DNA of 64,000 nucleotides, from NCBI GenBank assembly GCA_001570385.1, contig BBYL01000012.1:248001-312000 (forward strand). The letters are read 5' to 3'. Below, in pieces: positions 14,251 through 19,645 of this stretch (positions are counted from its first letter, which is position 1; the number at the start of each line of letters is the position of its first letter). Source of the stretch: Microtetraspora glauca (GTDB lineage Bacteria > Actinomycetota > Actinomycetes > Streptosporangiales > Streptosporangiaceae). The notes under the pieces were generated by a model. It was given only the letters and a program-made list of their open reading frames with translations. It ran no database searches and was not told the origin of the DNA. Both the position numbers and the translations under genes were made by a program.

Positions 14251-15279
14251 TCAACGGCCGACGCTCTCGGCGAGGGCGGCCAGTGCCGCGCCCCGGGCGC
14301 CCGCCATGTCAAGGTCGTCCACCAGTGACACGGTCGCGACCCGCCGCTGCTCCTCACGCAGGAGGGTGTGCTCGCGCACCTTCTCCAGGAACCACTCACG
14401 GAAGTGCGGCGCCGCCTCGACCACCCCGCCGCCCAGGAAGTACGCGCTGGGATCGGTGAAGTTGGCCGCGATCGTGAAGAGCCGGCCGATCGCCATGGCC
14501 TGCTGCTCGAAGACCTTGAGGGCGAGCGGGTCGCCGGTCTCGCCGTAGCCGCGCAGCAGCTTGGCGGCCTTCCCGATGGGCTCGACGGAGGCCAGCTCAT
14601 GGTCGGGGAACCGGGTCAGCCAGTAGGGCAGCAGGTTCTTCTCGATGCCGGTCAGGGACGCCACGCTCTCGGCGTCGCCGGTGAATCCGCAGTTGCACTC
14701 CGGCAGCGGCTGCCCCTCCTCCAGCAGGCCGTGCAGCGGGATGTGGACGTGCCCCAGCTCGCCCGCCATCCCGGCGGCCCCCTTGACCACCCGCCCCTCC
14801 TCGATGATGCCGCCGCCGAGCCCCGTGCCGACGATCGCGGAGATCGAGGAGTACTCCCACTCGCGGGCCCCGAAGCGTACGTGATGGGCGTAGAGGGCGG
14901 CGGCGTTGCCGTCGTTGTTGTAGACGACCGGAAGGTCCAGATGGGCTTCCAGCGCCCCCCGGAAGTCGAAGCCGTGCCAGGCGGGCTCGGAGAAGTTGGT
15001 CGCGCCCTTCGTCGAGATGACGCCGTCCGCGCTGGCCGGGCCCGGAGTGTCCAGGCCGACGGCGCGCACCTGGGAGCGGGTGATCCCGGTCAGCTGGAGC
15101 ACGTTCTCCATGGCATGGGCCAGCTGCTCGACCGCCACCTCGGGTCCCTCGCGCACCAGGCTCGGCGTCTCCGCCATCCGATCCACCAGGAAGCGGCCGG
15201 AGGCGTCGAGCACGGTCGCGTTGTTGCTGGTGCCGCCGTTGTCGAGTCCGACGACGACCCACGAGTCTGCATGTGCCAT
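14251..15279 (-). CDS. ROK-family sugar kinase
   Basis: 342 aa cytoplasmic kinase, probably phosphorylating glucose or an amino sugar. The phosphate loop reads GLDNGGTSNNATVLD, the hinge NNDGNAAALYAH with catalytic Asp, and the glycine motif SAIVGTGLGGGII. GELGHVHIP supplies the zinc-site His region, while the canonical CxCGxxGC is reduced to ECNCGFTGD, so some metal ligands differ. There is no HTH domain, so it is an enzyme and not a regulator. It follows the HAD gene on the same strand after 142 bp with its own possible TAGTCT -10 box. Confidence 0.85.
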   Translation of the reverse strand: MAHADSWVVVGLDNGGTSNNATVLDASGRFLVDRMAETPSLVREGPEVAVEQLAHAMENVLQLTGITRSQVRAVGLDTPGPASADGVISTKGATNFSEPAWHGFDFRGALEAHLDLPVVYNNDGNAAALYAHHVRFGAREWEYSSISAIVGTGLGGGIIEEGRVVKGAAGMAGELGHVHIPLHGLLEEGQPLPECNCGFTGDAESVASLTGIEKNLLPYWLTRFPDHELASVEPIGKAAKLLRGYGETGDPLALKVFEQQAMAIGRLFTIAANFTDPSAYFLGGGVVEAAPHFREWFLEKVREHTLLREEQRRVATVSLVDDLDMAGARGAALAALAESVGR

Positions 15280-15421: not shown

Positions 15422-16174
15422 TCAGCGTGCGGTCACGGGCACCCGGCCGGTCACCGACACCTCGTCGAGGTCGGAGACGAGGAGATCCGCCATGGCGAAA
15501 CCGGTCCCGGTGCCGGACGGCGTATCCCGCGCTCCGCCCCGGTCCACGCCGACGATCAGTCCGAAACCGCCCCGCCGTGCCGCCTCAAGGCCGGGAAGCG
15601 TGTCCTCCACCACGATCGTCCGTTCCGGTGGGACGCCGAGGCGGCGGGCGGCCTCCAGGAACATCGCGGGGTCGGGCCGTCCGGGAAGCCCGAGCCGTCC
15701 GGCGTCGTCGCCGTCCACCAGCTGGTCGAACAGGTGGCCGACCGCCGCCGAGGTGAGGATCCGGCGGCAGTGCCTGCTCGCGGAGACGGCGGCGATGCGC
15801 AAGCCACGCCGCCGCAGCTCGCGGAGCAGGGCCACGCTTCCGGGGTGGGCCGCGACGCCGTGCCGCCGCAGATGCGCGGTGAAGAGCGCGTCCTTCTCCT
15901 CGGCCAGCGAGCGGACGCTGGCGGTGCCGGGCGGGCCGTCCTCGGGCAGGCTGAGGCCGCGGGAGGCCAGGAACGTGCGGATGCCGTCGAGCCGTGGCCG
16001 CCCGTCCACGTGGCGCAGGTAGTCGTCGCGGATGTCGAACGGCTCCGAGCGGCCGTGCAGGAACGTGTCGAACACGTGCTTCCAGGCCGCGGCGTGCACG
16101 CGCGCGGTGTCGGTGACCACGCCGTCCGTGTCGAGGATCGCCGCGTTGAACGAGGTCAGATCGATGGCCGCCAT
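15422..16174 (-). CDS. HAD-superfamily hydrolase, beta-phosphoglucomutase-like
   Basis: 250 aa. Motif I is ILDTDGVVTDTARVH, with a Thr where beta-phosphoglucomutases usually have Phe (DFDGV). The cap domain contains HVDGRPRLDGIRTFLASRG, typical of beta-phosphoglucomutase and related phosphatases. Motif II is AAVSASRHC, and motif IV VVEDTLPGLEAARRGGFG. The ATG at 16174 has AAAGGG 7 nt upstream; the longer upstream frame looks non-coding. With the neighbouring ROK kinase it may process glucose phosphates from maltose-, trehalose- or kojibiose-type disaccharide phosphorolysis (inference). Confidence 0.83.
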   Translation of the reverse strand: MAAIDLTSFNAAILDTDGVVTDTARVHAAAWKHVFDTFLHGRSEPFDIRDDYLRHVDGRPRLDGIRTFLASRGLSLPEDGPPGTASVRSLAEEKDALFTAHLRRHGVAAHPGSVALLRELRRRGLRIAAVSASRHCRRILTSAAVGHLFDQLVDGDDAGRLGLPGRPDPAMFLEAARRLGVPPERTIVVEDTLPGLEAARRGGFGLIVGVDRGGARDTPSGTGTGFAMADLLVSDLDEVSVTGRVPVTAR

Positions 16175-16473
16175 GGCGCCGCCCTTTCCGTGCTGGACGT
16201 TGGAGTGAACACGAGCCTCTCCGTTCCGGTTCGGATGGGCACCACCGGACCGTTCCATCATGAGGGACGGCTCCATGGCGGCCTGGAACCACCCCACCAT
16301 CTCGCGAGATCCGGGGGAAAGGCCGAAGGTCCGTGATCGGCGGGCCCAATGTCCCCGGCGTACGGCACCGCGGGGGCGGAGGCGCACCGCCCAGGTCCCG
16401 GGCCGTCGCGGCGGCTCCGGACAGAGGGTCCAGAGTAGGGGGAGGGGCATTCACCTCGGAGGAGGGGACGGAC

Positions 16474-18759
16474 GTGAGACGGTTCGGCCTCATCGCACTG
16501 CTCGTCGTGACGATCGGCGCGTTGTTCGCGGGCGGCGCCTTGTACCTGTTCGGCGCGGTCGGCGCGGCCGACGTGGCGTGGACTGTGGGGACCGTAGCCG
16601 CCCTGTTCCCCGCCGCCTGGTGGGTGATCTCGGCGCTGCGGCACGGCAGGTTCGGCGTGGACGCGATCGCCGTGCTCGCCCTGGCCGGTTCCCTCGCCGT
16701 GCGGGAGTACCTGGCGGGTGCGCTGATCGGTGTGATGCTCTCGACCGGCCAGGTCCTGGACGACTACGCGCTGCGCCGGGCGCGCCGTGACCTGACGGCC
16801 CTGTACGAGCGCGCGCCGCGTACGGCACGCCGCTACGACGACGGCACGCCGTACGTCGTCCCCGTGGACGACGTACGGCTCGGCGACCTGCTGCTCGTCC
16901 CGAGCGGCGAGACGGTTCCGGTGGACGGCGTGGTGCGGCGGGGCGTCGCGCTGCTCGACGAGTCGGCGTTGACCGGGGAGTCGCTGCCGGTGGAGCACTC
17001 CGAGGGCGAGAGCGTGCCCAGCGGCGTCGTCAACGCGGGCGCGGCCTTCGACATGTGCGCGACGGTGACCGCGGCCGAGAGCACCTACGCGGGCGTGGTG
17101 CGGCTGGCCCGCGAGACGGAGGCGGACAGCGCCCCCATCGTGCGGCTCGCCGACCGGTTCGCGGCCTGGTTCCTGCCCGCGACGCTCCTGGTCGCCGGGC
17201 TGGCCTGGCTGGTCTCCGGTGAGCCGGTCCGCGCGGTCGCCGTGCTGGTCGTGGCGACCCCCTGCCCGCTGCTGCTCGCCGCGCCCGCCGCCATCGCCTC
17301 CGGCCTGTCCCGTACGGCACGGCACGGTGTGGTGGTGAAGGGCGGCGGCGCGCTGGAGACCCTCGGCCGGGCGCGCACGCTGGTGCTGGACAAGACCGGG
17401 ACGCTCACCGTCGGCCGGCCGCAGGTGGTGGACATCGTTCCCGCCCCCGGCCGGGACCGCGACGAGGTTCTGCGGCTGGCGGCCGCCGTGGACCAGATGT
17501 CGTCGCATGTGCTGGCCGCGGCGATCGTCCGTACGGCCCGAGAGAGGGGCCTCGCCCTGCCCGCGCCCGGCGACGTGCGGGAGGAGCCGGGCTCGGGCAC
17601 GACGGCGCTCGTCGAGGGGAGCAAGATCCGCGTCGGGAAGGCGCGCACGGCGTCACGCTCCCCCTGGGAGGACGCCCAGCGGGCCAGAGCCGCGCTCGAC
17701 GGGGCGATGACCGTCTGGGTGACCGTGGACGACCGGGTCGCCGGTGTGATCCTGCTGCGGGATCAGGTGCGCGGCGACGCCGGGCGCACGCTGCGGCGGC
17801 TGCGCACGGCCGGGATCGACCGGGTGGTGATGCTCACCGGGGACCGGGCCGAGGTCGCGGAGAGCGTCGCCACGGTGCTGGGGGTGGACCAGGTGCTCGC
17901 CGAGCGCAGCCCGGCCGGCAAGGTGGAGGGGGTCAGGGACGAGGTGCGGCGGGCCACGACCGCGATGGTCGGCGACGGCATCAACGACGCGCCCGCGCTG
18001 GCCGCCGCCGACGTCGGCGTGGCGATGGGCGCGCGCGGCTCCGGCGCCTCGGCGCAGGCCGCCGACGTGGTGCTCACCACCGACCGGATCGACCGGCTGG
18101 CCGACGCGATGGACGTCGCCCGCCGGTCGCGGCGCATCGCCGTGCAGAGCGCGGGCGTGGGCATCGGGCTGTCCCTGGCCGCCATGGTCGTGGCCGCGCT
18201 GGGATACCTGCCCCCGGCGGGCGGCGCCCTGCTCCAGGAGGGCATCGACGTGGCCGTCATCCTGAACGCGCTCCGGGCGCTCACCCCCGGCCTCGGCGCG
18301 CGGCGGCGGGTGGACGGCCGCACGGACGCCCTGCTCCGCCGGTTCGAGAGCGAGCACGCCGAACTGCGCCCTCCCCTAGAGATGATCAGGGACGTCGCCG
18401 ACGAGCTCTCCTCACCTCCGGCGCCGGACACCCTCGCCCGGCTGCGGCGGGTTCACGACTTCCTCACCCAGGAACTGCTGCCCCACGAGCACGAGGAGGA
18501 GGAGCGGCTCTATCCGGCGATGGGCGACCTGCTCGGCGACCCAGAGGCGACGGTGACGATGAGCAGGGCGCACGCCGAGATCGACCGGCTGGTCACCCGG
18601 CTCGGCCGGCACATCGAGCTCGCGGAGCCCGACGGCCCGCGTCCGGGGCAGCTTGACGACCTGCGGGCCTGCCTGTACGGCCTGTACGCCGTGCTGACCC
18701 TGCACTTCGCCCAGGAGGAGGAGGCGTACTTCTCCCTCGCGACGAGCTCCCGCGAGTGA
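16474..18759 (+). CDS. Heavy-metal P-type ATPase fused to a C-terminal hemerythrin-like domain
   Basis: 761 aa. Residues 1-600 are a P1B-type pump: A-domain TGES near 168, membrane metal motif ATPCPLLLA near 264, phosphorylation site DKTGTLT near 305, and GDGINDAPALAAADVGVAMG near 500. The membrane motif is TPCP in place of the usual CPC or SPC. No N-terminal metal-binding (HMA) domain is present. From about residue 615 the chain becomes a hemerythrin-like four-helix region with FESEHAEL, HDFLTQELLPHEHEEEERLYP, RAHAEIDRL and LHFAQEEEAYF, giving the His/Glu set expected for a di-iron or cation site. GTG start follows GGAGGAGGGG by 5 nt. Iron or redox sensing linked to metal export is inferred. 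Confidence 0.88.
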   Translation: MRRFGLIALLVVTIGALFAGGALYLFGAVGAADVAWTVGTVAALFPAAWWVISALRHGRFGVDAIAVLALAGSLAVREYLAGALIGVMLSTGQVLDDYALRRARRDLTALYERAPRTARRYDDGTPYVVPVDDVRLGDLLLVPSGETVPVDGVVRRGVALLDESALTGESLPVEHSEGESVPSGVVNAGAAFDMCATVTAAESTYAGVVRLARETEADSAPIVRLADRFAAWFLPATLLVAGLAWLVSGEPVRAVAVLVVATPCPLLLAAPAAIASGLSRTARHGVVVKGGGALETLGRARTLVLDKTGTLTVGRPQVVDIVPAPGRDRDEVLRLAAAVDQMSSHVLAAAIVRTARERGLALPAPGDVREEPGSGTTALVEGSKIRVGKARTASRSPWEDAQRARAALDGAMTVWVTVDDRVAGVILLRDQVRGDAGRTLRRLRTAGIDRVVMLTGDRAEVAESVATVLGVDQVLAERSPAGKVEGVRDEVRRATTAMVGDGINDAPALAAADVGVAMGARGSGASAQAADVVLTTDRIDRLADAMDVARRSRRIAVQSAGVGIGLSLAAMVVAALGYLPPAGGALLQEGIDVAVILNALRALTPGLGARRRVDGRTDALLRRFESEHAELRPPLEMIRDVADELSSPPAPDTLARLRRVHDFLTQELLPHEHEEEERLYPAMGDLLGDPEATVTMSRAHAEIDRLVTRLGRHIELAEPDGPRPGQLDDLRACLYGLYAVLTLHFAQEEEAYFSLATSSRE

Positions 18760-18887
18760 GGCCGCCCCGTGGCGACGGCGCGGCCGGGCGCGGGGTCCGG
18801 CCGGGGCGCAGAGCATGATCATCTTCTGGGTGGCCAGGTCGTACAATTGCCAACGGGCCGGGTCCTTCACCTTGGGAGGTGGAGAGC

Positions 18888-19241
18888 GTGCGTGACTTCC
18901 GTGTGTCGGTCTCGCCGCACCCGCCGTTCACGGTCGTGAGCGTGATCGGTGAACTCGACGTGCTGACCGAGCCCGAGCTCCGCGAGCAGGTGGAGCGGAC
19001 CCTCGACAGGGAACCGTCGTGTCAGCTGCTCTTCGACTTGACCGCGCTGCGGTTCATCGACAGTTCCGGCATCCGGGTCATCCTCGACTGCTACACGCGC
19101 ACCCGCGGCTCCGGCGGGGGCGTGACGGTGTGCGGGCTGAGCCCGCACATCCAGCACCTGTTCACCATCCTCGGCCTCACCGTCAGGATGAACATCTATC
19201 CCACGCTCGCCGCCGCGCTCAGCCACGCCGTCGGCGAGTAG
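18888..19241 (+). CDS. STAS-domain anti-sigma factor antagonist
   Basis: 117 aa single STAS domain, the SpoIIAA/RsbV type that frees a sigma factor by binding its anti-sigma kinase. The phosphorylatable serine lies in LRFIDSSGIRVIL, near residue 58. The GTG at 18888 is chosen for GGGAGG 8 nt upstream, rather than the GTG at 18879 that overlaps this site. TACAAT at 18842-18847 may be its -10 box. No anti-sigma kinase or sigma gene lies adjacent, so partners are elsewhere. Confidence 0.88.
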   Translation: MRDFRVSVSPHPPFTVVSVIGELDVLTEPELREQVERTLDREPSCQLLFDLTALRFIDSSGIRVILDCYTRTRGSGGGVTVCGLSPHIQHLFTILGLTVRMNIYPTLAAALSHAVGE

Positions 19242-19243
19242 CA

Positions 19244-19290
19244 CCGGCTCACCGGACGGCCCGGCTCACCGGACGGCCCGGCTCACCGGA
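19244..19290. repeat. 17-bp tandem repeat, 2.8 copies
   Basis: CCGGCTCACCGGACGGC occurs at 19244-19260 and 19261-19277, with a partial third copy at 19278-19290. It fills the gap between the convergent STAS and DUF5335 genes, and its third copy contains the DUF5335 stop codon. Each unit carries CCGG twice, so the transcript could fold. Confidence 0.8.
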
Positions 19291-19645
19291 TCTCGGGCCG
19301 GAGGTGGAGGGTCACCAGCGTCTGCGTCCCGTCCTCGTCCTCTATGTCCAGCGCCCACGGCGTCCCCGGAATCGACGACGTCGTGAGGATCCGCCGCGGC
19401 CGCGTGACGGCATGCCGCAGCACCACCGGATACTTGCTGTCACGCCCGCCCAGGCCGACGGAGAAGCAGTCGTCCTTCTCGTCGTACTCCAGGTAGGCGA
19501 GCGGGAGCTTCGCGGCCTCCAACTGGTCCCCGAACGCGCGGTCCAACACCTCGACGGTGACGTCGGCACCCTCATAGTCCTTGGTCAGCATCTCGAAGAA
19601 GCTGTGCCATTGCGCGCGGGGAAGCTCGGCTCGCTGCTCGGTCAT
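19283..19645 (-). CDS. DUF5335 family protein
   Basis: 120 aa acidic soluble protein with no signal or membrane segment. It begins MTEQRAELPRAQWHSFFEML and has the conserved pattern VEVLDRAFGDQLEAAKLPL, LEYDEKDDCFSV and the RILTTSSIPGTPWALDIED region. This matches an actinobacterial family of unknown function that I recall as DUF5335. AAGGAG stands 6 nt before the ATG. The gene is alone between a convergent STAS gene and the SARP regulator. Confidence 0.75.
   Translation of the reverse strand: MTEQRAELPRAQWHSFFEMLTKDYEGADVTVEVLDRAFGDQLEAAKLPLAYLEYDEKDDCFSVGLGGRDSKYPVVLRHAVTRPRRILTTSSIPGTPWALDIEDEDGTQTLVTLHLRPEIR

Follow-up and report, generated by a model that had tools for sequence, protein, structure and literature searches.

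The gene at positions 16474 to 18759 on the forward strand of the window (the whole stretch of 64,000 nucleotides of Microtetraspora glauca DNA that was analysed) almost certainly encodes a P1B-5-ATPase, a metal-export pump like Nia of Sinorhizobium meliloti and the P1B-5 protein of Acidothermus cellulolyticus. The pump carries a hemerythrin-like domain at its C-terminus, and it is very likely that the protein both belongs to this class and binds iron with its tail domain. Fused hemerythrin-like domains are described in PMC9388753 for some P1B-5-ATPases, namely those of A. cellulolyticus (2010) and S. meliloti (Nia, 2013). The fusion of pump and hemerythrin has thus been known in print since 2010, and the protein is an ordinary member of a poorly understood family.

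The gene and its pump core

The gene is one open frame of 761 residues plus stop, with the coding part at 16474-18756 and the stop codon ending at 18759. The GTG start lies eight bases after an AGGAGG, and the start and the codons that follow it are the same in three congeners; because of this spacing and conservation the start is judged to be sound. A frame error or a chance fusion was considered and ruled out, as the same fusion is found in three congeners (91-93% identity) and, overall, in a total of 55 distinct proteins, the window's included. The gene and the parts of its pump core are as follows.

16460 to 16465, forward strand: AGGAGG, likely ribosome-binding site, seen in the sequence
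16474 to 18759, forward strand: P1B-5-type metal ATPase with C-terminal hemerythrin-like domain (761 residues plus stop), from profile matches and the congener-conserved start
16813 to 17325, forward strand: E1-E2_ATPase domain (actuator and adjoining membrane helices), residues 114-284, PF00122, E 2.7e-44
17257 to 17268, forward strand: TPCP metal-site motif in M4, residues 262-265, seen in the sequence and invariant in 12 of 12 alignment rows
17374 to 18012, forward strand: P/N (haloacid-dehalogenase-type) domain, residues 301-513, PF00702 Hydrolase, E 7.5e-27
17389 to 17403, forward strand: DKTGT, residues 306-310, seen in the sequence within the P/N domain
18235 to 18249, forward strand: QEGID (QExxD) motif in the last membrane helix (M6), residues 588-592, from the sequence and a motif scan

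The sequence-only reading had taken the protein for a P1B-type pump that lacks an HMA domain, and this is borne out by a score of 533.6 bits against the NCBIfam heavy-metal P-type ATPase model TIGR01525 (cut-off 346.25), by the matches to PF00122 and PF00702, and by a Pfam search of the 761 residues in which no HMA domain was found at E<=0.001. Its choice of TPCP, at residues 262-265, as the metal motif holds as well. TPC(P) in M4 and QExxD in the last membrane helix are the marks of the P1B-5 class, and the pump has both of them. The AlphaFold2 model of the whole protein (22 sequences, mean pLDDT 81.5, pTM 0.67) has helices at residues 2-25, 29-56, 63-75, 79-112, 223-248, 251-283, 540-575 and 581-603, these eight predicted helices are read as the membrane helices, and the sixth of them (251-283) is broken at 261-263, at the TPCP.

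The hemerythrin-like tail domain

The tail beyond the last membrane helix runs from residue 604 to 761, about 158 residues, with a four-helix part of about 146.

18337 to 18738, forward strand: hemerythrin-like domain, residues 622-755, PF01814 and AlphaFold2

A hemerythrin profile search had been named beforehand as the check that could refute such a domain, and it returned a match of residues 622-755 in the full protein to PF01814 Hemerythrin at E 3.3e-15, with 57.1 bits where the cut-off is 25.3; the isolated tail matches at E 1.3e-16. From the tail alone (47 sequences) AlphaFold2 predicts a confident four-helix bundle with a pLDDT of 95.3, and the four tail helices in the model lie at 615-644, 651-687, 690-717 and 724-760. 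The only NCBIfam match of the tail at E<=0.001 is the RIC model, at 25 bits, which is far below the FeS_repair_RIC cut-off of 204.7 bits, so the tail does not count as RIC/YtfE. YtfE is also the first match in a profile search against solved structures, at E 3.1e-4.

Hemerythrins did not stand out in either of the two fold searches of the tail, Foldseek and VIA-align. None of the 375 Foldseek matches at E<=10 reaches E<=0.001, and the list is headed by receptors and designed bundles; VIA-align placed 3cax first (Z 13.4) and 2p0n third (Z 13.0) amid designed bundles of equal Z. Both structures, which we take to be HHE proteins, are also weak sequence-profile matches to the tail, at E 0.053 for 3cax and 0.022 for 2p0n. 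The genome from which the window comes has nine places that match PF01814, all above the cut-off, the tail of the P1B-5 pump being one of the nine.

The putative metal site

The candidate ligands were counted over 55 distinct hemerythrin-bearing proteins of more than 600 residues, the window's included, with the two frame-broken genes L129 and L029 dropped; the rows are related and were chosen by likeness, so that they are not independent.

18355 to 18357, forward strand: His628, putative iron ligand, helix 1, His in 55 of 55 rows
18484 to 18498, forward strand: His671-Glu672-x-x-Glu675, putative ligands, helix 2, His671 in 55 of 55 rows
18571 to 18579, forward strand: His700-x-Glu702 (HxE), putative ligands, helix 3, His and Glu each in 55 of 55 rows
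18703 to 18717, forward strand: His744-xxx-Glu748, putative ligands, helix 4, His in 54 and Glu in 55 of 55 rows

The hemerythrin-like spacing of His and Glu over about 145 C-terminal residues, on which the sequence-only reading had remarked, is not due to chance, since the four His and the final Glu of the site are each present in at least 54 of the 55 proteins. Position 672 is Glu in 54 and Asp in one, position 675 is Glu in 40 and Asp in 15, and the set of four His and two carboxylates is complete in 54 of the 55. The single hemerythrin-bearing relative without the full set (L131, G314:C34:18500-23200) has Gln for His744. The hemerythrin domains of the relatives diverge to as low as 22% identity with that of the window protein.

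The pattern in the family is H-HE..E/D-HxE-HxxxE, as against the H-HxxxE-HxxxH-HxxxxD of the oxygen carriers. The five-His site of oxygen-binding hemerythrins is therefore absent, with no HxxxH in helix 3 and Glu rather than Asp at +5 after His744, and position 704, where the oxygen carriers have their fifth His, is occupied by Asp in the window protein, with just three of the 55 proteins having His there. The HHE-type pattern H-HxxxE-H-HxxxE is found instead, in order and in spacing, as His628, His671/Glu675, His700 and His744/Glu748. The published P1B-5 motif places the last ligand at +5, as HxxxxD (PMC9388753). Position 749, at +5 here, is Glu in 45, Asp in nine and Leu in one of the 55 proteins; because all 55 have Glu at +4 and Leu occupies +5 in the S. 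meliloti protein, Glu748 seems from the alignment to be a better candidate for the last acidic ligand than the +5 residue.

Comparison with known pumps and hemerythrin-like proteins

The homologue on pSymA of S. meliloti 1021 is co-linear with the window protein, with 47.6% identity over 99% of it, and the TPCP, the QExxD and the hemerythrin ligands align between the two. The site of the S. meliloti protein reads H-HxxxD-HxE-HxxxE, with Asp at the place of 675 and Leu at +5 after His744, whereas the window protein has Glu at both. This match is presumably Nia (SMa1163), the record having no annotation at that place. Nia has Ni2+ and Fe2+ as its substrates, and both metals build up in a nia mutant (PMC4932525, citing Zielazinski 2013); in the nia deletion made by the authors of PMC4932525 themselves, the tolerance of S. 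meliloti to Cu, Zn, Cd, Pb and Ni is unchanged, with iron not among the metals named in that part of PMC4932525. Nia is also counted among the bacterial iron exporters, in a sentence of PMC7762939 that files all of its examples under P1B-4. By analogy with Nia, Fe2+/Ni2+ is probably the substrate of the window pump.

The P1B-5-ATPase of A. cellulolyticus (A0LQU2), described as the first member to be characterised, has the same order of domains as the window protein; its sequence is absent among the 80 loci listed from the contig scan, and the likeness is one of description. The 2010 study of this protein reportedly found two irons per hemerythrin domain, and by analogy the C-terminal domain of the window protein probably also binds two.

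In the profile alignment of RIC/YtfE with the tail, the H-HxxxE and the HxE of helix 3 align, and the His of HxxxE is followed by Met in YtfE and by Glu in the window protein. The hemerythrin domain of FBXL5 (3v5z) aligns with the tail model over 131 residues at Z 10.9 and rmsd 3.0, a Z that unrelated bundles also reach, and the sequence-profile search with the tail does not bring up FBXL5 at E values up to 10. In FBXL5, described as a human iron sensor, the domain is fused to an F-box protein, whereas in the window it is fused to a metal pump. The ligands of FBXL5 presumably include the pair of Glu in an HExxE, as in the window protein. The iron site of FBXL5 is given as the basis of iron sensing (PMC12541023) and as one that does not bind oxygen (PMC4919030; PMC12541023). 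The site in the window also fits the pattern of the plant protein BRUTUS, H-HxxxE-H-HxxxE (PMC12022348), the middle part of which is matched in YtfE in the profile alignment.

Distribution and possible gain and loss of the domain

Genomes with a pump of this kind were counted in tallies that rest on the score to the window protein and so count pumps without a hemerythrin domain too. The search of relatives found the pump above threshold in 11 of 60 genomes (E<=1e-100) and that of the window's phylum in 46 of 396 (E<=1e-130), the window's own genome being included in both. Four further searches, each including the genome used as its centre, gave 24 of 398 genomes in the phylum of a Bradyrhizobium (E<=1e-110), 3 of 194 in that of a Thermoplasmata archaeon, 5 of 199 in that of a Lactiplantibacillus and 17 of 149 in that of an acidobacterium (all three at E<=1e-100). 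One of the 11 pumps from the relatives search (L018) is an SPC-type pump without a hemerythrin domain, and a short relative in Lactiplantibacillus daoliensis (L027), also without the domain, has SPCP in place of the TPCP of the class. A tblastn search of plasmid records at E<=1e-60 gave 264 records, 79 of them with one place that covers at least 80% of the query.

The link of the domain to the class was followed in 197 open reading frames scored on a pump profile, which were picked by likeness to the window protein, with a few duplicates among them, and the counts from which describe this sample and not nature. The script called TPCP in 107 of them, 55 with a hemerythrin domain (the frame-broken L129 among them) and 52 without (among them L184, truncated by the end of a contig, and one of the halves of L029), and it found QExxD in 98 of the 107, with no call in nine. 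Two of the other 90 have a hemerythrin domain, L150, which in fact has TPCP, and the second half of L029, the first half of which has TPCP. None of the 197 has a hemerythrin domain on a CPC or an SPC pump. L029, which is from a metagenome assembly, and L129 are P1B-5-hemerythrin genes with a frame broken by either sequencing error or decay, in which parts of the hemerythrin domain lie in another frame.

A quick tree was made of 105 P1B-5 cores, 56 with the domain and 49 without, together with five outgroup pumps. All the cores with the domain fall within a single branch of 76 rows (SH-aLRT 99), 20 of which lack it, and three branches outside this one (13, 7 and 9 rows) lack it throughout. The fewest changes of the hemerythrin label on the tree are seven, or six without L184, and with a minimum of six it appears that the pump often does without the domain. 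One gain followed by several losses would fit these data, with the reservation that the count of changes is blind to gain as against loss and that a tree made quickly, some of its branches long, does not prove the point.

Four of nine tails that lack the domain stop within five residues of the NALRAL that closes the last membrane helix, one stops after 13, and the remaining four are longer and still without it; further pumps without the domain end 3-5 residues past NALR. Since relatives exist that end so soon after the last membrane helix, the domain looks like a dispensable add-on to the pump. No stand-alone match to the hemerythrin profile was seen beside the pumps without the domain in the loci examined, bar the pieces of L129 and L029, and this is a weak test of a split gene as most loci extend only 1.5-2 kb past the pump.

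Gene neighbourhood

There are no iron genes among the four neighbours scanned in the window.

14251 to 15279, reverse strand: ROK-family protein, from the neighbour scan
15422 to 16450, reverse strand: HAD hydrolase, from the neighbour scan
18879 to 19241, forward strand: STAS protein, from the neighbour scan
19283 to 19645, reverse strand: DUF5335 protein, from the neighbour scan

The consensus of a DtxR/IdeR-type iron box has no match at three or fewer mismatches in the whole window, where 0.18 would be expected by chance. A wider survey took up to three gene calls per side at 20 loci with the domain (111 of 117 calls scanned) and at 17 of 20 loci without it (87 of 93 calls), a simple gene finder having given no pump call at L218, L225 and L232; the six calls omitted from each set were mostly the shortest and the longest. 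No family of iron transport or storage recurs among the 25 commonest neighbour families of these 20 and 17 loci. A THAP4-like heme-binding domain is present in two of the 111 calls near domain-bearing pumps and FecCD in one of the 87 near the others, and universal stress proteins make up six of the 111 and three of the 87.

Two plasmids carry the gene in other surroundings. On a plasmid of Mycolicibacterium aubagnense from mine sediment (L021, NZ_CP122996.1 141067-155328) ferritin-family, VIT-family and aquaporin genes come after the P1B-5-hemerythrin gene, in what is possibly an iron-handling island. On a plasmid of Streptomyces fungicidicus (L020, NZ_CP023408.1) the homologue lies near genes for pyruvate phosphate dikinase, a GH65 hydrolase, a universal stress protein and a flavodoxin-domain protein.

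Possible roles of the domain

By analogy with the known pumps, Fe2+ (and/or Ni2+) would be exported at the cost of ATP via a phosphoenzyme at Asp306. A regulatory role of the hemerythrin domain is somewhat favoured; filling or oxidation of the di-iron site might alter the contact of the domain with the cytosolic domains of the pump, and this could tune export under iron excess or in an oxidised cell. Whether iron occupancy rather than oxygen is the main signal is rated at a little under an even chance. A further reading, held to be less likely than not, is that the domain senses iron occupancy and not oxygen: a carboxylate-rich site (the four His, Glu672, Glu675, Glu702 and Glu748), with the Glu at +4 and not the residue at +5 as last ligand, would gauge the Fe2+ of the cytosol in the manner of the iron sensors FBXL5 and BRUTUS, and the pump would be on when the site is filled. 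Such an iron gate is a reasonable reading because the FBXL5 site, with a presumably similar set of ligands, senses iron without binding oxygen. Two published observations stand against it, the unusually stable oxy form of the S. meliloti protein (PMC9388753) and the reaction of the diiron centres of BRUTUS with O2 and H2O2 (PMC12022348). Both would suit a sensor of oxygen or redox state in the manner of DcrH or Bhr-DGC, with the pump switched when its di-iron site binds O2 and autoxidises, as would the rapid autoxidation of the A. cellulolyticus protein (PMC9388753) and the universal stress protein and flavodoxin-domain protein near the S. fungicidicus homologue. The missing fifth His, with Asp at 704, argues against a simple oxygen carrier, the review itself is undecided in its account of P1B-5 domains on placing them with the oxygen sensors (PMC9388753), and an oxygen sensor is held to be rather doubtful.

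It is more unlikely still that the domain acts as an iron buffer, a delivery domain or a ferroxidase/peroxidase module, which would hand Fe2+ to the pump or detoxify locally and would not be a gate. The likeness to RIC and YtfE in the profile searches, together with the middle of H-HxxxE-H-HxxxE that aligns with YtfE, is consistent with a function of this kind, but the RIC cut-off is far from reached, and a position where the last membrane helix ends would suit a regulatory domain. A structural helical bundle that holds no metal is very improbable; relatives without the domain are scattered over the tree and L131 has Gln for His744, yet the full set of ligands persists in nearly all of the domains although these have diverged so widely.

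Implications

The 2022 review describes it as unclear whether the P1B-5 domain senses oxygen or redox state, or iron (PMC9388753). The ligand statistics, together with the relatives that naturally lack the domain, provide a ready design for a test of iron against oxygen. Should the tail turn out to gate the pump by iron, the protein would be an exporter under the direct control of iron, of the kind that the sequence-only reading had proposed.
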